Part shown: in pieces, positions 21,911-59,240 of the stretch
Layout: each line of letters begins with the position of its first letter
Numbering within the stretch: position 1 is the first letter of the stretch
IMG/VR virus record: IMGVR_UViG_3300044825_003205
Coordinates: 62,001 to 126,000 of that record
Direction: 5' to 3' (one strand)
Source: a virus
Length of the DNA stretch: 64,000 bases
Made by a program: the position numbers and the translations under genes
The notes under the pieces: generated by a model
Database searches by the model: none
What the model saw: the letters and a program-made list of their open reading frames with translations, nothing else
What the model was told of the DNA's origin: nothing

Positions 21911-21920
21911 AATCTATAGA

Positions 21921-21927
21921 ATAAATA
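21921..21927 (-). promoter_or_regulatory. Late-promoter motif TATTTAT (giant adhesin)
   Basis: Coding-strand GTATTTATTC, 10 nt before the adhesin ATG at 21910. It is back to back with the plus-strand copy at 21941, only 13 bp away. Confidence 0.6.
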
Positions 21928-21940
21928 CACTTTGTGTGTG

Positions 21941-21947
21941 TATTTAT
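21941..21947 (+). promoter_or_regulatory. Late-promoter motif TATTTAT (gene at 21958)
   Basis: GTATTTATAG, 10 nt before the ATG at 21958. It is the divergent partner of the motif at 21921. Confidence 0.6.
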
Positions 21948-21957
21948 AGTAAAAAAG

Positions 21958-38185: not shown

Positions 38186-38992
38186 ATGAAAAATAAATTA
38201 CCAATTTCAGTAATTCTGCCAATAAAATCTGCAATAGTAAAAGACTTTGAAGATTATTTTGACAAAGCAATAAAGTCTATAATATCGAATGATGTAATTC
38301 CTTCTGAGCTAGTAATTGTTCATACACAAGAAGAAAAGTTAGTTAACTTTTTGAATGAGTATAATTTCGAGGAATTGAACGTAAAAAAAATAAAATTTGA
38401 AGAATCTCCAAATTATTGTTCACAAGTTAATTTTGGTATAAAAAGTAGCGAATACGAATGGGTTTCAATATTTGAATTCGATGATGAATATTCATCTATA
38501 TGGTTCCGAAATGTGAAAAAATACATGGACGCATATCCGACCGCTCAGGTTTTACTACCTGTCGTTGTTGATACTGATTCGAAAGGAATGTTTGCAGGAT
38601 TTACAAATGAAGCAGTCTTTGCAGCAAACTTCACACAAGAATTAGGATATCTAACGAATGAAACTTTACAAAATTATCAGAATTTTCAGACCGCAGGTTC
38701 AGTTATAAAAAAACAAGTTTTCGAAGATTTTGGTTATTTCAAGTCATCAATCAAGTTAACATTCGTATATGAATTTCTTTTGAGATTAACATATAACTCA
38801 GTGAACATAATGACTATTCCAAAACTTGGTTATAAACATTTGAACATGAGAGAAGGTTCAATATTTTGGTCTTACAAAAACTCATCAGAGAAAATGCTCG
38901 AGGATGAAGTTAAATTTTGGTTGGCAACAGCAAAAAAAGAATACTTTTTTGTTGAGGATAGAACCATAAAATATGAACCCCAAGAATCCTAA
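38186..38992 (+). CDS. GT2 glycosyltransferase
   Basis: 268 aa. ISVILPIKSAIVKDFEDYF at the start, then FEFDDEYSS (about 92-100) as the metal-binding site, and FQTAGSVIKKQVFEDFGYF (about 171-189) on the acceptor side. Last glycosyltransferase of the plus-strand island. Its TAA overlaps the ATG of the sigma factor gene (TAATG), so the sigma may be made from the same transcript. Confidence 0.8.
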   Translation: MKNKLPISVILPIKSAIVKDFEDYFDKAIKSIISNDVIPSELVIVHTQEEKLVNFLNEYNFEELNVKKIKFEESPNYCSQVNFGIKSSEYEWVSIFEFDDEYSSIWFRNVKKYMDAYPTAQVLLPVVVDTDSKGMFAGFTNEAVFAANFTQELGYLTNETLQNYQNFQTAGSVIKKQVFEDFGYFKSSIKLTFVYEFLLRLTYNSVNIMTIPKLGYKHLNMREGSIFWSYKNSSEKMLEDEVKFWLATAKKEYFFVEDRTIKYEPQES

Positions 38993-39741
38993 TGAACTTA
39001 ACTCTGTCCGCAATAACAGAGGATGTTGTAACAAAAAAAAGAGGTAGAAAAGCTCAAAAAGAAAACTACTTTGATATAAGAGAAGAAGAAGCGGTAAAAC
39101 GATTCTTAATAGCAAAAACGTCCGAAGAAAAAAACAAAATCTATAATGAGTTCTTAAGAGCTCCTTTGGATAAGATGATATCTTCAATAATTAGAAGATA
39201 TAAGTTATATAGAAAAGATATGGATTTTCAAGAAATTCATGTTGATACACATTCTTTTCTAATGACAAAAGTGGATAAATTTAAACCTTCCAAAAACAAA
39301 AAGGCGTATTCATATTTTGGTACGATATGCAAAAACTATTTGATGGGTCAAATTATAAAAGACCAAAAAGAAACAAATAGAAAAATATCGTATGAGGATG
39401 TATCCTCCGCTTTAGAAGAAAGAGCTGATATGATTTATACAATAGACGACGACACTTTGGGTGTTGAAGTTGTAATTTCTGTTTACATAAAAGAGCTAAA
39501 AGATTTTATAGATAATGAATCTTTAAGTGATAATGAAAAAAAATTGGGGTTTGCATTAGTAGACCTATTTGATAATTACGAAACAATATTTTCTTCAACA
39601 GACAATAACAAATTCAATAAAAATATAATCTTATTGTCTCTCAGAGAAATGACAAACTTGTCTACCAAAGAAATAAGGACATCTATAAAAAAATTCAAGA
39701 AACTATATCTTGGGATTCAAAGTAAATTAAAAAATTACTAA
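38992..39741 (+). CDS. Late sigma factor-like protein (T4 gp55-like)
   Basis: 249 aa. Residues about 55-130 resemble sigma region 2: a helix with APLDKMISSIIRRY, then MDFQEIHVDTHSFL and, most tellingly, AYSYFGTICKNYLMGQIIKD, the aromatic-rich helix that in sigma factors binds the melted -10 strand. The C-terminus (about 205-249) is a helical basic tail with TKEIRTSIKKFKKLY. T4 gp55 is a similarly small sigma that directs host RNA polymerase to late promoters. Its gene ends 16 nt before the first late operon with a TATTTAT motif. Probable reader of that motif; that link is inference. Confidence 0.75.
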   Translation: MNLTLSAITEDVVTKKRGRKAQKENYFDIREEEAVKRFLIAKTSEEKNKIYNEFLRAPLDKMISSIIRRYKLYRKDMDFQEIHVDTHSFLMTKVDKFKPSKNKKAYSYFGTICKNYLMGQIIKDQKETNRKISYEDVSSALEERADMIYTIDDDTLGVEVVISVYIKELKDFIDNESLSDNEKKLGFALVDLFDNYETIFSSTDNNKFNKNIILLSLREMTNLSTKEIRTSIKKFKKLYLGIQSKLKNY

Positions 39742-49675: not shown

Positions 49676-51475
49676 TTATCTCAACTCTTTCAAATCGAAT
49701 GTTCTAACGCCATCAACTGTGATTCTACCATAGAATCTGTTGTTCACCATTTTCTTAGCGTATCTAGTCATGATACCTTTGATTGGTGTAAAGTTGAATG
49801 GATTATACATTGTTGGTGTAAGTTGTAAAGGAACATATGGTGCGTAGATGTAACCAGTGTCTAATAGAGACGTTCCTTTGTGACCAAGAAGAACTTGGTT
49901 AGCTGGGAAGTAAGGGTCTCTATAAACTTGATAACGTCCTGCAAGAGTACCAACTCTTTCAATACCCATGTTATATTGGTCTTGCTCAGGAGCTGCGTTT
50001 GAAACGTGGAAATACTCCAAGTCATCAAAAATCGCAGAAATTTCTGAAGATACTACAATCCAGTTAGCACCACCTCTAAGAGTTGATTTGTGGATTTGTG
50101 CAGAAATTTGGTTGATTGCTGTGATAAGAGTTTGGTTCCAGTCTTTCTGAGTATAAGGAACAGCGTTAGTTCCCAATCTCTTCCAACCGTTGTAATCCCA
50201 TCTTAAGTTCCAAGCCGCACCTTTTCTAAGGTCTCTCAAGATTTCTCTATCGATTTCAGCCGCAACTTGCTCAGACAATAAAGCTGTCAATTCAGCTTCA
50301 GCGTCGATGTTGTGGAAAGCCGCAACGTCTTGTGCCATTTCTGGTGACCATTGAGCTCTTAATTTTCTTTCAGTCACAGAAACTGTTACTGATTGAAGGT
50401 CAAATGAAACCTCACCAATTCTATCTTCAAATTCCAAGTTTTTGTAGATTCTATAAACAGGAACAAACGCATTGTTGTTTCCATTTGTAGACACAAAAGT
50501 AGAACCTGAATAACCATCAAGTGAGTTTTGTCCGACAGTACAAGGAACTTGTAAGTCAACCTCCAAGTAGATGTCACCATTTACATCACAAAGGTTGTCA
50601 TATTGACCACCACCTGTTCTAGAGTTAGGGAACGCTAAATTTGCATTGTTGTTACCATACTGAACAATACCTTTACCATATCTTTGAGTTACAACTCTGA
50701 AAAGATAAGGATTAGATGTATTAGCTGATGTGAAAACGTTATCTACAGAACCGTAAATAGTCAAATCAGACAAGAAAGATTCGTTATCAATTGGGTTACC
50801 GTCTGGACCGATTAATTTACCAGCAGCATCTGACGCAAAACCTGACATGATAATCAATACTTTTCTGTATGTATTTTCTGTATATGCAGCTGGTTCTAAA
50901 TTCAATGTTGTAGAATTCCAAGCTGCAGTAACTGCAGTACCTGTAACAGCAGAAAACTGACCTTTTGAATAATCAAACAAACCTGGTGGGTCTAATGCTG
51001 GTTCATTACCTTCGTAAAATCTATCATAAAGGTCTCTACCTTGATTATAGTTATAACCTTCATTTGGTGTTTGGTCTGCCTCCATATTTGGAGAACCGTA
51101 AGGTGCATAGTGTCTGTTAGGTACACCTGTGTCTACGTAATTTTGAATTTGAGGTACAAAATAGAACAATTTACCGATAGGTAAGTTCATTGCTTGTACA
51201 GATACGATGTCGTTAGCCAATAACTTAGAGAATACTCTTCTGATTATTGGAAATACAACTGTTTCGAAAGAACCTGAGTCAGAAGTTGTTGAAGCTTCGT
51301 TTATCAAGTGTGAAGCTTGGTTTTCATACAACTGAGCTACGTTCTCTTTCATGTGACCCTTAAGTCCTTCTAGGAAACCTAAGTTGTCCCATTTGTTAAT
51401 TGTGTCTTCTTTGATAACTTTAAGGTGCTTAAGACCAATATTACCAACAAGACCTGATTCTAATAAAGCTCCCAT
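49676..51475 (-). CDS. Major capsid protein (T4 gp23-like)
   Basis: 599 aa, HK97-fold major capsid precursor. After an N-terminal helical propeptide, HLINE-ASTTSDSGSF occurs at residues 56-70; Ile-Asn-Glu60/Ala61 matches the T4 protease (I/L)-x-E site and position (T4 cuts after Glu65). It is followed by FPIIRRVFSKLLANDIVSVQAMN (in parts PIIRRVFSKLLAND and VSVQAMNLPIGKLF), the equivalent of the gp23 segment 'VxQPMxxPxG'. The C-terminus ends GIMTRYAKKMVNNRFYGRI. Gene follows gp22 with 30 nt and no late motif of its own, and ends at a strong terminator. Confidence 0.9.
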   Translation of the reverse strand: MGALLESGLVGNIGLKHLKVIKEDTINKWDNLGFLEGLKGHMKENVAQLYENQASHLINEASTTSDSGSFETVVFPIIRRVFSKLLANDIVSVQAMNLPIGKLFYFVPQIQNYVDTGVPNRHYAPYGSPNMEADQTPNEGYNYNQGRDLYDRFYEGNEPALDPPGLFDYSKGQFSAVTGTAVTAAWNSTTLNLEPAAYTENTYRKVLIIMSGFASDAAGKLIGPDGNPIDNESFLSDLTIYGSVDNVFTSANTSNPYLFRVVTQRYGKGIVQYGNNNANLAFPNSRTGGGQYDNLCDVNGDIYLEVDLQVPCTVGQNSLDGYSGSTFVSTNGNNNAFVPVYRIYKNLEFEDRIGEVSFDLQSVTVSVTERKLRAQWSPEMAQDVAAFHNIDAEAELTALLSEQVAAEIDREILRDLRKGAAWNLRWDYNGWKRLGTNAVPYTQKDWNQTLITAINQISAQIHKSTLRGGANWIVVSSEISAIFDDLEYFHVSNAAPEQDQYNMGIERVGTLAGRYQVYRDPYFPANQVLLGHKGTSLLDTGYIYAPYVPLQLTPTMYNPFNFTPIKGIMTRYAKKMVNNRFYGRITVDGVRTFDLKELR

Positions 51476-51505: not shown

Positions 51506-53074
51506 TTATTTTAGTTTACTCATTAAGTCCTTTATTCTTAAGAATTGAGGAGCTTCGTAAGTTTTGTTTTCAATAAGTGTTGTTGAAGACCCTGTCTGTA
51601 CATTTTGTACTAACTTATTCTCAACTGTCTCATTGATTGATTTTGTTTCAGTCTGAGTCAACTCATCTTTAACCGCTCTGTAGAGAGACTTTGATTCTTT
51701 TAAAGATTGAACGTTATCAAACCTTCTCAAAATATTTATCTTTTCCTTTTTAGTTGTTGAGTGTTCAGTAAAGATTCTAGTTGCATATGCTAAATTAGAG
51801 TTGAATATTGCCACTTCGTTCAATTTTTCTCTGAAGACATTTAGAGCCTTTCTATATTCTTCATTCTTCTCTCTCAAAGCAACAACTTCAGTTTCTAAAG
51901 ATTCGTTCTTTAAATTCCTATTGTTAGTAATTCCTTTTCTCAAACCTTTAGGTCCAAATGCATAACCTCTAGCAGCTTCTTTAGTTTCAACCTTTTTTAC
52001 TACTTTGGATTTTGCTTCCATGTTTTCACCTTTCTTGTATTCGAACTTAGCTTTTCCAGTCCCCATTGTTTTAGGACCTTCTTTTTTGTCTTCTTTAAAT
52101 CCACCTGAAACTTTGTTCTTATAAGTGAATTTAGGACCAGAGCCAATTCCAACACCTTTAGGTTTTATGGATTTTTTACCTTCTTTCGTTTCTTTTTTCT
52201 TAGCCTTTTTGTGACTATATGATTCCATCATTTCATCTTCATCATCAGATTCCATCATTTCGTCTTCATCATCAGATTCCATCATTTCATCTTCATCATC
52301 AGATTCCATCATTTCATCTTCATCATCAGATTCCATCATTTCATCTTCATTATCAGATTCCATCATTTCATCTTCATCATCAGATTCCATCATTTCATCT
52401 TCATCATCAGATGACATGTCTAAGTCAACATCAGATTCCATCATTTCGTCTTCATCTTCTTCATTAAATTCAATTTCATAAACAACTTCTTCATCATCAA
52501 CATCCATTTCAACATCAGATTCTAAATCTGACATGTTTGGTTCGTCAGAGAAAATAGCGTCAATTACGTCTTGAACTTTATCATCAGATACTTCTTCGTT
52601 ATATTCCATAGTTTCGTGGTTTTCTTCATAGGATTCTCCTAATTTTATAAGATACTCTGCATCTTGTTCGTTGTCTTTGAGATGAACCATTTCATCATCT
52701 TTTTTTACAATGATTCCATCGTCTTCACCCATAGCTTTAAATACTCTAAGTATTTCTTCGTCAGATGCAGATGTCAAATCAATTGGTTCTTCCATGTCAG
52801 AATCTCCACTTGCGTCAAAATCAACTTCAACATCTTCTTCACCCTCTTCATCATCGGATGACATGTCTAAGTCAACATCAACTTCCTCCTCGGAATCAAC
52901 ATTGTCAGTGTCTAACTCATCTTCGTCTTGTTCAGATAAAGACTCTTTTACTAATTGGCTGATTTCTTCCTTCATAGTAGAAGCAAGTATTCCTTTTGCA
53001 TTTTCGGCAATAACATCTTCAACATTTTTCATTTGGATGAGTGCCTCTTCAACAAGATTTTTGTTTTCTTGCAT
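51506..53074 (-). CDS. Prohead core scaffold (T4 gp22-like)
   Basis: 522 aa from the ATG at 53074; an upstream TTG is in frame. Very acidic N-terminal half (Asp/Glu runs, about 50-290) with seven perfect 9-aa repeats ESDDEDEMM, then a basic middle (KKAKKKETKEGKKS, about 285-390) and a helical C-terminus (LRKGITNNRNLKNE, then a long coiled coil to 522) that ends IKDLMSKLK. Position between the protease and the major capsid gene matches T4 gp22, a highly charged scaffold degraded by gp21. Homology is inferred from order and composition, not motif. Confidence 0.75.
   Translation of the reverse strand: MQENKNLVEEALIQMKNVEDVIAENAKGILASTMKEEISQLVKESLSEQDEDELDTDNVDSEEEVDVDLDMSSDDEEGEEDVEVDFDASGDSDMEEPIDLTSASDEEILRVFKAMGEDDGIIVKKDDEMVHLKDNEQDAEYLIKLGESYEENHETMEYNEEVSDDKVQDVIDAIFSDEPNMSDLESDVEMDVDDEEVVYEIEFNEEDEDEMMESDVDLDMSSDDEDEMMESDDEDEMMESDNEDEMMESDDEDEMMESDDEDEMMESDDEDEMMESDDEDEMMESYSHKKAKKKETKEGKKSIKPKGVGIGSGPKFTYKNKVSGGFKEDKKEGPKTMGTGKAKFEYKKGENMEAKSKVVKKVETKEAARGYAFGPKGLRKGITNNRNLKNESLETEVVALREKNEEYRKALNVFREKLNEVAIFNSNLAYATRIFTEHSTTKKEKINILRRFDNVQSLKESKSLYRAVKDELTQTETKSINETVENKLVQNVQTGSSTTLIENKTYEAPQFLRIKDLMSKLK
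52224..52412 (-). repeat. Seven 27-bp tandem repeats
   Basis: Units start at 52224, 52251, 52278, 52305, 52332, 52359 and 52386 and are near-identical; one has a single base difference (Asp to Asn). Encodes ESDDEDEMM in the scaffold. A degenerate further copy is near 52434. Confidence 0.95.
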
Positions 53075-53094: not shown

Positions 53095-53101
53095 ATAAAT
53101 A
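53095..53101 (-). promoter_or_regulatory. Late-promoter motif TATTTAT (scaffold)
   Basis: Coding-strand CTATTTATTG, 20 nt before the scaffold ATG at 53074. Probably also drives the capsid gene. Confidence 0.55.
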
Positions 53102-53419: not shown

Positions 53420-54142
53420 TTATTTTGATAAATAATCGGATAATTTTTTCATTAAATCAATAGACTGGTTTACACTTGGAGCCGAAGCAATTTTATTCTT
53501 TTTTTCCTCCTCCAAATTTTCTTCATACTTTTCTCTCTCAGTTACGTCGTCAAAGAGGTAAGCTCCTGGTGTGGAAGGTGATGAAACCAAATCGAAACAA
53601 ATTAATTCAAAATCTTCTTGCACTTCATTTCTTTCACCTACTTTTTTTAAAGACCCTACTCCTCTTGAGGAAATTCCTAAAGTCACCCCTTGTCTTAATA
53701 GATTTGCTGCAATGTCTCCTTTGGTTGTTACTACACCTCTTTCATGAAACCCTGGTGAAGTAAGTAATTTTAGTTTACCCATTAGGATATTTCTATCCCA
53801 CCATATGTCTGTGATTAAATGCGATACTCTATCTAAGTCTATCAAAGAAGATTCAGGATGATTAAGTTCAGAAGTTGAAAGTCCTTTCTTAATTATTTGT
53901 TTATACTTCTCGGCTTCTCTTTTGAGTATTGGTTCAGGATATGTTCTACCATTTCTATTTGGTGTATTATATTTCTGTAATACTGCATAAAATTCAAAAG
54001 GGTTTCTATAATCTACATTCTTAGACTCATTCATAAACTTGAGGTTTATATCATCCAACGGAGATATATAACCTGCGTCCATTTCAACCAAAATTCCAAA
54101 CCCTTGTTCGTGTGCTTCTAATATTCTGAGTTTTTTTTCCAT
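53420..54142 (-). CDS. Prohead protease (T4 gp21-like)
   Basis: 240 aa serine protease that matures the prohead by cutting scaffold and capsid propeptides after (L/I)-x-Glu. FYAVLQKYNTPNRNGRTYP (about 51-69) is the substrate-loop signature of the family. The likely catalytic residues are His95 in SELNHPES and Ser158 or Ser159 in GISSRG; DLVSSPSTPGAYL follows. Position and motifs agree with T4 gp21. Late motif 12 nt upstream. Confidence 0.9.
   Translation of the reverse strand: MEKKLRILEAHEQGFGILVEMDAGYISPLDDINLKFMNESKNVDYRNPFEFYAVLQKYNTPNRNGRTYPEPILKREAEKYKQIIKKGLSTSELNHPESSLIDLDRVSHLITDIWWDRNILMGKLKLLTSPGFHERGVVTTKGDIAANLLRQGVTLGISSRGVGSLKKVGERNEVQEDFELICFDLVSSPSTPGAYLFDDVTEREKYEENLEEEKKNKIASAPSVNQSIDLMKKLSDYLSK
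53428..53434 (-). promoter_or_regulatory. Late-promoter motif TATTTAT (DUF4494-like gene)
   Basis: Coding-strand TTATTTATC, 14 nt before the ATG at 53413; overlaps the 3' end of the protease gene. Confidence 0.45.
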
Positions 54143-54154
54143 TAACTTTTTTAA

Positions 54155-54161
54155 ATAAATA
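54155..54161 (-). promoter_or_regulatory. Late-promoter motif TATTTAT (prohead protease)
   Basis: Coding-strand ATATTTATTT, 12 nt before the ATG at 54142. Confidence 0.55.
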
Positions 54162-54178: not shown

Positions 54179-54607
54179 TTACTTTTTCGTCAAAGAAAAA
54201 TCGAAATACTGATTGTCCAAGATATTAGTTTTTTGAATGCTACGAACAATTCTTTTTACAGAATCTTTGATTTCATTAGACTTAAAATCAAGTTCTTTAT
54301 CCAAATAAAGATTAATTTCTAAATTGAAAAATGACTTTTTACCCGAAAAAATACCACTTGTTCTTAAGTCTAAATCTACAATTGAATTTTTACTAAATAA
54401 ATTCGTATTGATTGAATCGAATACTGTGTGTTTGAGTTCTCTACTTAAATTGCCAACAACTCTATTCCAATTTTCTAAGTCTTGTTTGGGTGAAACCCAT
54501 GATTGTATGTTAATGTAAAGTGATTTTAAGTTTTTGGAGTCTACCGTGCCATATGAAGATTTGAACGAGTTTGATAAATTCATCTTCACATTTTTTCCTT
54601 TTTTCAT
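54179..54607 (-). CDS. Hypothetical protein, head block
   Basis: 142 aa, basic, mixed alpha/beta with INIQSWVSPKQDLENWNRVV (as INIQSWVSP and ENWNRVVG) and a repeated FxLxINLYLD segment. It holds the place of gp67/gp68 between portal and protease in T4 order, so a prohead core component is possible, but sequence similarity is not visible. No late motif found upstream; the sequence TAAACTTTGG near the start is close to, but not, a host -7 element. Confidence 0.55.
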   Translation of the reverse strand: MKKGKNVKMNLSNSFKSSYGTVDSKNLKSLYINIQSWVSPKQDLENWNRVVGNLSRELKHTVFDSINTNLFSKNSIVDLDLRTSGIFSGKKSFFNLEINLYLDKELDFKSNEIKDSVKRIVRSIQKTNILDNQYFDFSLTKK

Positions 54608-54687
54608 CTATGAACCATATTTCCAAAGTTTATTTTTAAAAAGATAACATATAACTTTATCTATGTCAAAATTTTAAGAATAAACTA

Positions 54688-54695
54688 TATATTTG
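54688..54695 (+). promoter_or_regulatory. Host-type -7 element TATATTTG
   Basis: Exact TAnnTTTG match ending 6 nt before the bS21 ATG at 54702. With a start 4 to 7 nt downstream, the bS21 mRNA would be leaderless or nearly so. Confidence 0.5.
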
Positions 54696-54701
54696 TAATA
54701 T

Positions 54702-54887
54702 ATGTTGATAATAGAAATTAAAAATAATGGAGGGATAGAAAAAGCCCTGAAAACTTTGAAGTCCAAAGTAATTAAGACGAAGCAACAAAAATTACTCACG
54801 GAGAGAAAGGAGTATACTAAAAAGTCAGTCAAAGAAAGAAGTGAAAGACTCAAAGCGATATATGTTCAGAAAAAAAGAAACAATTAA
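54702..54887 (+). CDS. rpsU: Ribosomal protein bS21
   Basis: 61 aa, basic. Pattern fits bS21: LIIEIKNNGGIEKALKTLK (opening beta strand, then 'GxxIExALxxxK'), KTKQQKLLTERKEYTKKSVKERSERLKAIY (in parts LLTERKEYTKKS and ERSERLKAIYVQKK). It is closest in feel to Bacteroidota bS21. Tyr54 in AIYVQKK is at the position of the Tyr that, in the Flavobacterium ribosome as I recall it, packs on the hidden anti-Shine-Dalgarno end of 16S rRNA. Phage-borne bS21 would join host 30S subunits. It is the only plus-strand gene between portal and protease, has a host-type -7 element, and ends 4 nt into the convergent neighbour. Confidence 0.85.
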   Translation: MLIIEIKNNGGIEKALKTLKSKVIKTKQQKLLTERKEYTKKSVKERSERLKAIYVQKKRNN

Positions 54888-55588
54888 ATTGATTCTTCAA
54901 GTTTTTTCAATCTCAAAAAATTAATTTGATTGAACTTGTCATTCTGGATTTTGTCTATTGTTTCTTGAATCTTTTGTTTAGTCTCCAAATCTGTCTCGTT
55001 TTCTAAAACAGGGGAAAGTTTTTGTAAAGTTTTTTCTTTTAATGAATTGAACCTACTTTCTAAAGATTCACTATCTTCTTTGATTAATTCAAAAAATTCC
55101 TTTTTTGTATTTTCATCTAAAGATTCAATGTAATTTTGTACTGTTTGATTAGCAACTCTAACCATCGTACTCAAAGGGATGTTGATTGGTTTCTGATTTT
55201 TAATCTCGGATTCGCTGAGTGTTTTGTAAAGTTTTTTCTTCAAATTAACTCTTTCAGTTAAGTCTATTTTCTTATTCAAATATACTAAGTCATCAATATC
55301 CTGATACCTATTTTGAATTTTGGTTTCGGTCATCAACTTAGGTAGTTTAATATGTTGTAGAAGTGATTGTATCATTTGTATTCCTTCGTTCACAAATTCT
55401 TTAGCGTCTTGTTCATTCAAACCTTTTGGATTCGACAACTCGTCATATAAAGAATATACTTTGGACAAATCTTTATTATTGAGAATATTCTGTTTGAATT
55501 CCATCAAACTTTTCTTGAAAGATTTTTCATCTTTATAAGATTCTATCAAACTATTTTCTATTACCGATTTAATGAGCCCAAAAGTCAT
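54884..55588 (-). CDS. Helical protein downstream of portal
   Basis: 234 aa, almost fully helical and charged, with segments KGLNEQDAKEFVNEGIQM and ESLESRFNSLKEKTLQKL suggestive of coiled coils. Position after the portal corresponds to the prohead core genes 67/68 in T4. Contains TLSES (Leu-Ser-Glu), a possible protease site. Late motif 17 nt upstream of the ATG. Core/scaffold role inferred from order. Confidence 0.6.
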   Translation of the reverse strand: MTFGLIKSVIENSLIESYKDEKSFKKSLMEFKQNILNNKDLSKVYSLYDELSNPKGLNEQDAKEFVNEGIQMIQSLLQHIKLPKLMTETKIQNRYQDIDDLVYLNKKIDLTERVNLKKKLYKTLSESEIKNQKPINIPLSTMVRVANQTVQNYIESLDENTKKEFFELIKEDSESLESRFNSLKEKTLQKLSPVLENETDLETKQKIQETIDKIQNDKFNQINFLRLKKLEESI

Positions 55589-55605: not shown

Positions 55606-55612
55606 ATAAATA
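55606..55612 (-). promoter_or_regulatory. Late-promoter motif TATTTAT (gene at 55588)
   Basis: Coding-strand ATATTTATATTC, 17 nt before the ATG at 55588. Overlaps the stop region of the portal gene. Confidence 0.45.
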
Positions 55613-57442
55613 TTACGAATTTAATAACTTATCTAATTCTTTTTCGATTTCACCTAAAGAATCTTGTCCTTGGTTAAGTTCAAGGTAAGTATCACCCTTG
55701 AAAATGTTATTTTCTACTAAAATATTCATTCTCTCATCTTGTCCCTCAGGTGTCACCCCAGCAGGAGCGGTAATCTCGCCTTCAGGTTGTGGTTCAGGTG
55801 CTGGTGGTATAGTTGGTTCTTCCGTTCCCGCAAATGCCCCACCTAATTCAGGTGCCGCACCTGCAGTTGCCGCGGTTGATGTATTTCCACTTGATTGTGA
55901 ATACAACTTATCAATAGTGTCAAATAATCCAGTTTTACTTATTACTGTTGGTGTTTGTTTGAGTTCTTCACCAATAGCTCTTTCCAATCTTTGTTGCATC
56001 AAATCTACTTTGATTTCTTCGTCAGACCAACCAAATATATGTTTTTTTGCCCATGTACTAGATGTTGGCTGAATTCCATTTCCTGGGTCTAAAACCAAGT
56101 CTTTATACAAAAGAACTTTTTCTTTCCAAACATCTATCTTTAATAAATCAGCTTGTGTAGAAGGATTAGTCAATCCAAGTGTAAAATTAGAAATTTCATC
56201 TTCGAACCCCAAAAGAAACAAATGAATGATTGCAATCTTGTTCAATTCCTGAATCATGCATTTTTGAATTCTGTTGATTGTTCTTGCAAAACGAATGTCT
56301 TGAAGTGACAAGTTTTTACCATCACCCACTACTTGTTCAAATCCCAAGAAAGCCTTTGGAACACGAAGAGCTGTCAAAAGTTTTTTCTGAATATATTCAA
56401 TATCGGCAATTTCTGACAGGTTTTGTGCACCAGCCAAAGTTTCAATTGGACTTGGGGATGCAGGGTCTCTTACAGGGACAAAATAATCTTGGTCTACCGC
56501 CATTTGATTAAACCTTAAATCTACGTTACCTGTTTTGGAATCAACGATTTGTTGTCTTTTGAATTTATCAGCAACACGATTTACATATGCCTCAACATCA
56601 TTATCATCCATATTTCCCACAAAAATCTTAAAAATTCTTCTTTCAGGTGCTCGTGATGTTCTATAAATCATCATTGCGTCTTCAGATAAAAGCAGTTGTT
56701 TCCAAATTCTCCTAGCCTTCTCTAACATCGATGTTCCGTAGGGAAGTTTCCTATCATCACCAAGTAATCTAAAGTGACCAACTTCCCACGTTTGAAAAAC
56801 CATATTTTTAGATTTCCATTCAAAAGTCAAAGCTTTCTTTGCTTCGGACTTTCCTAAATTGACAGCATTTTTATCGGTAACCCCGATTTCATGTCTTTCA
56901 ATTTCTATGTTTGGTAATTGTTGACATCCTACAATACCCTTTTCAGGGTCTAATTTAAGATAAATAAAATTATCACCGAACTTACAAGTATTTCTTGTCC
57001 ACATCGGTAAATTTGTGTTGATATCGAGTGTATTATTGAACAAATCTGCCAAAACCGCTTTTATTCTTTTCGATTCAGAATAAATTTGTAACATAAACCC
57101 ATCTTCATTTACCGTAGTAGATTCCTCGGCATATATGTCCAAAGCCGCAGATATTTCTGGCGTATACTCCATGGACTCATAATCATACGTAGCCGAAAGT
57201 CTTGAAGGTTCGTAAAATATTGCTTGAGTATATAGATTGTTTTCAACTTTAGCCCATTGATTTGCAATATAATAAGTTTGTTGAGCTTGTAGTTTTTCTC
57301 TTTCGTATTCTCCTCTATCTTGTGTTCTTAATAATTCTTTTTTGTCGAATTTAAAAGTTGGGTAATCCTGGCCCAAAAGAGAATTTGGACCAAACGCTTT
57401 ACCTAATCTTTGCCAAATCGTCAGATTGTTATTTTCCGCCAT
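55613..57442 (-). CDS. Portal protein (T4 gp20-like)
   Basis: 609 aa, dodecameric DNA entry ring at the unique capsid vertex. Recognisable T4-like segments: EYTPEISAALDIYAEEST (about 92-109), WTRNTCKFGDNFIYLKLD (about 147-164), YGTSMLEKARRIWKQLLLSEDAMMIYR (in parts GTSMLEKARRIWKQL and EDAMMIYRTSRAPERR) and KKLLTALRVPKAFLGFE (about 355-371). The C-terminal 70 residues are a Pro/Ala/Gly-rich linker and an acidic tail. Follows the terminase gene after 40 nt with its own late motif. Confidence 0.93.
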   Translation of the reverse strand: MAENNNLTIWQRLGKAFGPNSLLGQDYPTFKFDKKELLRTQDRGEYEREKLQAQQTYYIANQWAKVENNLYTQAIFYEPSRLSATYDYESMEYTPEISAALDIYAEESTTVNEDGFMLQIYSESKRIKAVLADLFNNTLDINTNLPMWTRNTCKFGDNFIYLKLDPEKGIVGCQQLPNIEIERHEIGVTDKNAVNLGKSEAKKALTFEWKSKNMVFQTWEVGHFRLLGDDRKLPYGTSMLEKARRIWKQLLLSEDAMMIYRTSRAPERRIFKIFVGNMDDNDVEAYVNRVADKFKRQQIVDSKTGNVDLRFNQMAVDQDYFVPVRDPASPSPIETLAGAQNLSEIADIEYIQKKLLTALRVPKAFLGFEQVVGDGKNLSLQDIRFARTINRIQKCMIQELNKIAIIHLFLLGFEDEISNFTLGLTNPSTQADLLKIDVWKEKVLLYKDLVLDPGNGIQPTSSTWAKKHIFGWSDEEIKVDLMQQRLERAIGEELKQTPTVISKTGLFDTIDKLYSQSSGNTSTAATAGAAPELGGAFAGTEEPTIPPAPEPQPEGEITAPAGVTPEGQDERMNILVENNIFKGDTYLELNQGQDSLGEIEKELDKLLNS

Positions 57443-57472: not shown

Positions 57473-57479
57473 ATAAATA
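57473..57479 (-). promoter_or_regulatory. Late-promoter motif TATTTAT (portal)
   Basis: Coding-strand CTATTTATATT, 30 nt before the portal ATG; the longest spacing of the set. Confidence 0.4.
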
Positions 57480-57482
57480 GTT

Positions 57483-59240
57483 CTAATTAGTAAACAACCA
57501 TCTATATTTCTCATAGTCATCTCTCGACGGTCCTTGGTTTGGAAAATGTTGTCTTTTTTGGTCTGTTTGAGGCATCATTGGATTGAAAAATTGTGATGAG
57601 TTTTTGTTCTCATTTATCGAAGTTGCCCAAGAATCAATCATTGCCTTTGTATGATTCAAATTTTTTGTAAGTTTTTGAAAAGATTTTTCTGCAACATATG
57701 TTGCCATAGATATGCCCATAATACAATCGTCATGATGTCCCTTTTGATGGTCAGGTCTTCCATTAATATAAACAAAAGTATTCATTTCGTTATATAATCT
57801 GTGAGACCTAACTTTAAATCCATGTCGAACATTTTCTTCGAATGACGCAATAATTTGTACTCTTTTACTATTGAAATTTATTCCAGGAATTTTCTCATTT
57901 ATCTTTGGGTCCCATTTCCACTTGTTTGCGGTATCCACCGTATCAACATACAGTCCTTTGTAGTTCAATTCTTGTAATTTTCTTGCCGTTGCCACTCCCA
58001 TACCACCTGTAAGGTCAACAACACAAAATGCGTCATACATGGTTCCCCACTTATACGCTATTTCAGCAACAACATCTGGTGGTACTTTAGCAACGTATTC
58101 TAAAACTTGTTCATTCTCATCAAAATCGATAATTTCTATACAAGAAAAATCTTCTGAGTCCCCTCTCGATACATCTACACCCATAATGTACTTGTGTCCG
58201 ACAACAGGTTCTTTCCAAATCCATAGAGCTCCACCCATCAGTTTAGCTCCGGGTTCTTGGAGTGTATTTTGTGCAATATTTTGAAGTATTTCAGATTCAA
58301 AGACGTTATCACCTGAACCCAAAAAGTTACACTCTAATTCCTGAGCAACTTTTCTTCTATCATACTTCAATTTTTTTACCATCCCCTCAAACCAAGAAGA
58401 ACATGGTTTATATCCTTGTTTAATGTAATCTGTGACAACAGAATGGTCACGTTCATAAGGGTTTGCAACTGAAAGACTTATGACAGCATCTGTTGAATAT
58501 TCTTCTTTGTTTAGTAAAAAATGAACCAAATCATTCGTTTTGACCATGTACAAATCTTTTGTATACCTTGGGTCACGATACCAAAACATCTCAGATATTT
58601 TGAAATCGTTCATACTTCTCAAGGCTTGGTCATATATTTCATAGTAAATCGGGTCATACCCGTTTGGTGTAGAAACAACAATAACTTTACCACCTGTAGA
58701 AAGTGATGCCATACATGCCGACCAAAAATCACCGTCAGCGTCTATGAACGCAGCTTCATCAAAAATAAGAATTGTTGGAGTATAACCTCTTAAAGCATCC
58801 TTTGATGTTGCGACCGCTTTTACCTCACAATCATTTGTTAGTTTGAAATGTCTTTGAGAATTTTTTTCTTGTGAAAAACCAACACCAACCCAATTAGGCC
58901 ACTGTTCTGTAAATGACCTAATTTTGTTAGCCATTTCCATAGAAGTATCCAACTTGTTTGCAATTATGAGAACCTTTTCAGGTTTTTGTTTTTTTGCAAA
59001 AACTAATTTTTTTGATGCCCAAGCAGCAGTAACTGTAGAAACGCCTGCCTGTCTATATTTGAGGGCAATGTTTTCGTTAAAATTTTCGTAGTCTTCTATT
59101 AATGAAACTTGGTCAGGAAATAAATCTAAAGGGACATACTTAGAAACCGTGTTATCATAGGTTTGTAAGTATGTCCTTAATGCGTATGGCGTATTTCTGA
59201 TACATTTAGTAACCTCAATAATTAATTGTTCTTTGGTCAC
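57483..59240 (-). CDS. Terminase large subunit (T4 gp17-like)
   Basis: 585 aa DNA-packaging motor. ATPase: Walker A-like YRQAGVST (62-69), in which the usual catalytic Lys is replaced by Val; Walker B ILIFDEAAF (157-165); coupling motif VVSTPNG (188-194). Nuclease: GVDVSRGDSEDFS (354-366, Asp356), VVDLTGG, and HHDDCIMGIS near the C-terminus. It starts at GTG, with no ATG nearby. Gene is 10 nt after the 434-aa gene and before portal, as T4 gene 17 precedes 20. Confidence 0.93.
   Translation of the reverse strand: MTKEQLIIEVTKCIRNTPYALRTYLQTYDNTVSKYVPLDLFPDQVSLIEDYENFNENIALKYRQAGVSTVTAAWASKKLVFAKKQKPEKVLIIANKLDTSMEMANKIRSFTEQWPNWVGVGFSQEKNSQRHFKLTNDCEVKAVATSKDALRGYTPTILIFDEAAFIDADGDFWSACMASLSTGGKVIVVSTPNGYDPIYYEIYDQALRSMNDFKISEMFWYRDPRYTKDLYMVKTNDLVHFLLNKEEYSTDAVISLSVANPYERDHSVVTDYIKQGYKPCSSWFEGMVKKLKYDRRKVAQELECNFLGSGDNVFESEILQNIAQNTLQEPGAKLMGGALWIWKEPVVGHKYIMGVDVSRGDSEDFSCIEIIDFDENEQVLEYVAKVPPDVVAEIAYKWGTMYDAFCVVDLTGGMGVATARKLQELNYKGLYVDTVDTANKWKWDPKINEKIPGINFNSKRVQIIASFEENVRHGFKVRSHRLYNEMNTFVYINGRPDHQKGHHDDCIMGISMATYVAEKSFQKLTKNLNHTKAMIDSWATSINENKNSSQFFNPMMPQTDQKRQHFPNQGPSRDDYEKYRWLFTN

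Follow-up and report, generated by a model that had tools for sequence, protein, structure and literature searches.

Bacteriophage bS21 and its surroundings

The stretch of DNA analysed here (64,000 nucleotides, hereafter the window) corresponds to bases 62001-126000 of a 134,630-base virus record. A gene for ribosomal protein bS21 lies on its plus strand between two minus-strand genes, within a block that encodes the large terminase, portal protein, prohead protease, and major capsid protein (Table 1), in agreement with the antisense position inside a head block described in an earlier note on this DNA. The predicted protein matched positions 2-54 of the 55 in the Ribosomal_S21 profile PF01165 with a score of 36 bits against a cut-off of 27. 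Its best sequence match in the PDB was bS21 of Flavobacterium johnsoniae (7jil chain z), to which residues 1-59 aligned without gaps and with Tyr54 opposite Tyr54. The profile match and this alignment, which is the comparison with Bacteroidota bS21 that the earlier note had proposed, bear out the identification of a 61-residue bS21 with tyrosine at position 54 and support its assignment to the Bacteroidota type. The phage protein is very probably a ribosome component. A second match to PF01165 was absent across the 134,630-base record, in which bS21 is present as one copy. No family matching the window bS21 was found in PHROGs, and a search of annotated phages for bS21 returned only five huge uncultured phages.

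Table 1 Features of the bS21 locus and related genes (positions in the window)
Feature	Position	Strand	Details
Phage bS21 coding sequence	54702-54887	+	61 aa, ATG start, Tyr54; PF01165 E=5.5e-9; 7jil chain z ungapped; 81 homologues
Predicted transcription start region and AUG of bS21	54697-54704	+	SD-free; predicted from T4 box geometry
TATTTGT, late-promoter-like box of bS21	54690-54696	+	5 nt before ATG; overlaps TATATTTG (54688-54695)
TTTGAC-N17-TTAT, promoter-like, of divergent gene	54644-54670	-	overlaps bS21 upstream region
Divergent neighbour, conserved	54179-54607	-	142 aa; no known family, no match in Pfam or PHROGs
Convergent neighbour	54884-55588	-	234 aa; stop overlaps bS21 stop by 4 nt
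Prohead protease (Peptidase_S77)	53420-54142	-	E=1.7e-22
Major capsid protein (Gp23)	49676-51475	-	E=3.5e-72
Portal protein (Gp20)	55613-57442	-	E=3.8e-74
Large terminase (TerL)	57483-59240	-	E=1.6e-12
Sigma-like protein, conserved, candidate late sigma factor	38992-39741	+	249 aa

The 80 viral relatives of the bS21 gene were reduced to 39 distinct sequences, with the window copy counted in. These sequences have been under purifying selection (median pairwise dN/dS of 0.14), and in a tree based on 58 columns only, the 39 phage proteins fell on one side of a branch with support of 100/99 and 22 host copies on the other. Eighteen protein columns, including the KVIKT stretch at residues 22-26, were invariant among 28 aligned phage proteins; KVIKT was absent from host copies. 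In the 81 phage proteins, residue 54 was always Y (77) or H (4), and it was Y in all 80 host proteins of the Flavobacteriaceae type. Across the phylum Bacteroidota, in a sample picked by best profile score, 25 of 30 hosts instead had R in this column, so that the aromatic residue of the window protein points to a host of the Tyr54 type, such as a member of Flavobacteriaceae. An extended Shine-Dalgarno (SD) sequence was often still present before the Arg54 genes of these 30 phylum-wide loci. A GGAGG within codons 10-12 of the phage gene was considered as a signal and dismissed, being present in only 6 of 81 copies.

Chen et al. (2022) described 47 Bacteroidetes phage genomes with a reversed bS21 gene in the same block, situated between two hypothetical genes among those for TerL, portal, protease, and capsid and encoding an aromatic residue 54; they reported late expression and put forward a takeover hypothesis (PMC9723584). 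All of the following were thus known from close phages: a bS21 gene that is reversed within the head block, Tyr54 in its product, Bacteroidota as hosts, and the idea of takeover. The window phage is a further member of this group. Phage bS21 as a ribosome component and the notion of takeover are also touched on elsewhere (PMC6375957, PMC9976891). The available part of the report of Chen et al. does not describe the promoter, the leader, the SD state, or a nested clade that has lost bS21 with both neighbours in place.

In 38 of the 39 distinct relatives, 81-100 nt separate the start of the divergent neighbour from the bS21 ATG. An AlphaFold2 model of its product was confident (pLDDT of 88.7), and a fold search with this model gave no convincing structural match. 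The promoter-like sequence of this gene shows TTAT or TTAC 17 nt past TTTGAC in 34 of the 39 relatives and is also kept in a clade that lacks bS21 (see below), which indicates that it serves the divergent gene. We rejected the complementary GTCAAA as a -33 element of bS21, given that its spacing to the bS21 box varies, that its spacing to the opposite-strand TTAT is fixed at 17 nt, and that it outlives the loss of bS21. A general promoter class of the form TTTGAC-N17-TTAT was likewise rejected, as the window contains just one further match, within a gene. Elsewhere in the block, acidic repeats of the DEDEMMES type are encoded at 52219-52467 on the minus strand, within the gene at 51506-53074 that is upstream of that for the capsid.

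The stop codons of bS21 and the convergent gene overlap by 4-9 nt in almost all relatives. The 4-nt overlap in the window leaves no room for a terminator at this junction, and a search there for one found none. In the available part of the report of Chen et al., expression was counted as bases per gene with the strand unstated (PMC9723584). Given such counts and the structure of the junction, antisense readthrough could add to the published bS21 signal, and it could also contribute to the likeness of that signal to the signal of the opposite-strand neighbour. The late expression reported for phage bS21 needs to be confirmed in a strand-specific manner.

At ten loci, the divergent neighbour (approximately 75% identity) and the convergent neighbour are both present and bS21 is absent. 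A tree of the neighbour gene placed these loci inside a clade of bS21 phages with support of 100/99, a nesting that indicates secondary loss of bS21. The gene thus appears to be dispensable in some phages, and the divergent neighbour, which persists where bS21 has been lost, was rejected as its strict partner. The former place of bS21 in this clade is occupied by a hairpin resembling an intrinsic terminator (-13.5 kcal/mol, z of -5.9). No other copy of bS21 was found in the records of the clade, which are incomplete fragments. These phages provide a natural comparison for those with bS21.

The box upstream of bS21 and a sigma-like protein

As the earlier note had described, an exact TAnnTTTG element precedes the bS21 gene: TATATTTG at 54688-54695 is followed by TAATAT and then by the ATG, giving a gap of 6 nt. 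The -7 element of the host, TAHHTTTG, sits at -12 to -5 (PMC6847099). The box might thus be an ordinary host sigma-A promoter, with bS21 expressed early or constitutively; the consensus is exact in the window, and the start-site spacing would likewise yield a leader of 1-2 nt (PMC6847099). The distribution of the motif and its form in relatives argue against this reading. TAHHTTTG has 88 matches in the window, only 3 of which lie within 40 nt upstream of a start, compared with approximately 1.8 expected by arithmetic from the counts, and the motif is not enriched before genes of this phage. Among relatives, the box is conserved in position as TATTT[G/A/C]T; in most of them it reads TATTTAT or GATATTTG, and the TA at -12/-11 is missing.

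TATTTAT, by comparison, is enriched upstream of genes. It precedes 14 genes in the window, compared with a mean of 0.8 and a maximum of 5 in 2000 random draws, and it was found in 124 of 215 unique upstream regions of related blocks, where 5.1 were expected (24-fold). Over the whole record, with the longest non-overlapping open reading frames taken as gene calls for this analysis, TATTT[AG]T preceded 27 of 55 starts of transcription units but only 1 of 52 operon-internal genes (p=5e-9), and in reverse orientation it was present at 7 of the 55 starts. Variants of the box lie 4-9 nt before the bS21 ATG in 37 of the 39 distinct relatives, closer than in other genes (p=3.5e-19). We read the bS21 box as a variant of this phage late-promoter motif in preference to a sigma-A element, and we consider the host promoter interpretation to be distinctly unlikely. 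Copies of TATTTAT before structural genes include those at 53095-53101, 54155-54161, 55606-55612, and 57473-57479 on the minus strand, in addition to other sites. Two back-to-back TATTTAT boxes form an inverted repeat (TAAATACAC...GTGTATTTA) between divergent genes at 21911-21957, which is likely a bidirectional late promoter.

A protein that may read such boxes is encoded in the window. The top PDB sequence match of the 249-residue protein was T4 gp55 (7d7c_F), a weak match with E=0.06. Its leading Foldseek matches were sigma factors, none of them at E<=0.001 and all obtained with a low-confidence model (pLDDT of 66.9), and no match was found in Pfam or PHROGs. The protein has at least 571 viral relatives. 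We regard it as a candidate sigma factor for the TATTTAT boxes, the pairing of the two being inferred. The arrangement resembles late transcription in T4, which depends on gp55, in that the late box is short, AT-rich, and free of any evident partner element and in that the phage encodes a sigma-like protein. It differs from the T4 system in that late promoters of the TATAAATA type are lacking in the window phage and TATTTAT is enriched instead, and in that kinship to gp55 consists of a weak sequence match and fold-level matches.

Leader length and Shine-Dalgarno pairing

The late box of T4, TATAAATA, occupies -13 to -6 (PMC1524935). With this geometry, transcription of bS21 would start at the AUG or a few nucleotides away from it, and the leader is predicted from the position of the box to be approximately 0-2 nt in the window and 0-4 nt across relatives. 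As a control, the same approach was applied to host rpsU, for which the -7 box ends approximately 29 nt before the ATG and yields a leader of 25 nt, as published for F. johnsoniae (PMC9976891). The earlier note had referred to apparently leaderless late messages, and this description fits a minority of genes: approximately ten in the whole record, including bS21, start within 6 nt of a box. It does not apply to late genes in general, given that the distance from box to ATG was 11-39 nt in 123 of 124 cases in related blocks, so that short leaders are the rule. Depleted 61S ribosomes of E. coli that lack bS1, uS2, and bS21 translate leaderless mRNA (PMC4929434).

The energy of SD pairing, computed against an assumed 16S tail, AUCACCUCCUUUCU, was -1.4 kcal/mol for the window bS21 gene compared with a host median of -19.8 kcal/mol. 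The values for the 39 distinct phage genes (-3.7 to +1.7 kcal/mol) did not overlap with those for 80 rpsU genes of Flavobacteriaceae-type hosts (-17.6 to -23.3 kcal/mol), and none of the 39 has the extended SD of autoregulated Bacteroidota rpsU. In F. johnsoniae, bS21 is autoregulated through this extended SD: when bS21 is missing from ribosomes, their anti-SD is exposed and rpsU is translated by means of the extended SD, whereas bS21-replete ribosomes translate it poorly (McNutt et al. 2023, PMC9976891). The host and phage proteins are ungapped homologues, and host Tyr54 stacks on A1534 and helps to hide the anti-SD (7JIL, PMC9976891). The genes differ in their control: that of the host is autoregulated and has a leader of 25 nt with an extended SD, whereas the phage gene is SD-free with a predicted leader of 0-4 nt. 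The absence of an extended SD would place phage bS21 outside the host autoregulation loop.

Two further observations bear on this bypass. For all 111 genes called in the record, the 22 nt before the start contained neither GGAGG nor AGGAG. Given that every gene of the window phage is SD-less, the missing SD of bS21 need not be an evolved bypass and may reflect ordinary wiring. The bypass is also not universal, in that an SD has been kept before bS21 of a distant huge phage (LR756501.1, 735 kb; 1421-1500 of the locus), where the strong sequence AAAGGAGGATAAATG pairs with -12.1 kcal/mol.

Possible roles of phage bS21

The earlier note had suggested that replacement of host bS21 could tune initiation toward non-SD mRNAs. 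This idea loses its force, given that Bacteroidota ribosomes with their own bS21 already initiate in this manner (PMC9976891) and that Tyr54 makes the phage protein similar. The distinguishing feature of the phage gene is rather its SD-free, near-leaderless message. What seems to be new is a phage bS21 message that lacks the host feedback signal and that seemingly starts at its first codon. We propose that phage bS21 is functional and would be made late from its own phage late promoter on such a message. The product would join the host 30S subunit and occlude the anti-SD as host bS21 does, and its output would persist when that of the host copy would be turned down, so that ribosomes would stay competent on the SD-less late mRNAs of the phage, to its possible benefit. 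Ribosomes filled by phage bS21 may in turn cause the same loop to repress host rpsU, with consequent displacement of the host protein. We judge the chances of this model as a whole, with loop bypass and host bS21 displacement included, to be about even. Displacement through the switching off of rpsU is a plausible extension of late, SD-free bS21 production; as an outright hijack of feedback, in which host autoregulation shuts off rpsU and thereby swaps in the phage version, it is on balance doubtful. Repression of rpsU by phage bS21, if true, would mean that a virus exploits a feedback loop governing ribosome composition. Exchange of host bS21 by phages was speculated upon by McNutt et al. (PMC9976891).

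The main rival explanation, which would use the same anatomy, is that host rpsU output falls late in infection and phage bS21 simply tops up the ribosomes and keeps them competent on SD-less mRNAs, with neither selectivity nor displacement. In F. johnsoniae, initiation on SD-less mRNAs is poor when the ribosomes lack the C-terminus of bS21 (PMC9976891), genes throughout the window phage are SD-less, and Tyr54 and the ungapped alignment suit a like-for-like substitute. The formation of one divergent group by the phage copies, with an invariant KVIKT that hosts lack, exceeds what a plain spare part would need, and we consider this explanation somewhat unlikely.

Phage and host bS21 show a consistent difference at residues 21-28 (PMC9723584), which are phage-specific also in comparison with the F. 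johnsoniae protein. This difference is in keeping with the hypothesis of Chen et al. (2022) that N-terminal changes in phage bS21 cause ribosomes to prefer phage transcripts. We identified no translation signal that is specific to phage mRNAs; the motifs seen were the promoter box and A-rich leaders like those of the host. No test of selectivity was found in the literature searched, and selective takeover of this kind is in our estimation quite improbable.

Incorporation of a phage bS21 into 70S ribosomes has been demonstrated in E. coli for the protein of Pelagibacter phage HTVC008M (Mizuno et al. 2019, PMC6375957), which differs from the window protein in host lineage and in having been acquired independently. 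The E. coli ribosomes with pelagiphage bS21 retained approximately 5% activity (PMC6375957), as might be expected if phage bS21 served to poison host ribosomes and shut off host translation. E. coli is a mismatched host for this protein, and a late block would also halt synthesis of virion proteins. We therefore regard such a shut-off as highly improbable. Among host genomes, some from Bacteroidota (six noted here) contain two or three bS21 matches.
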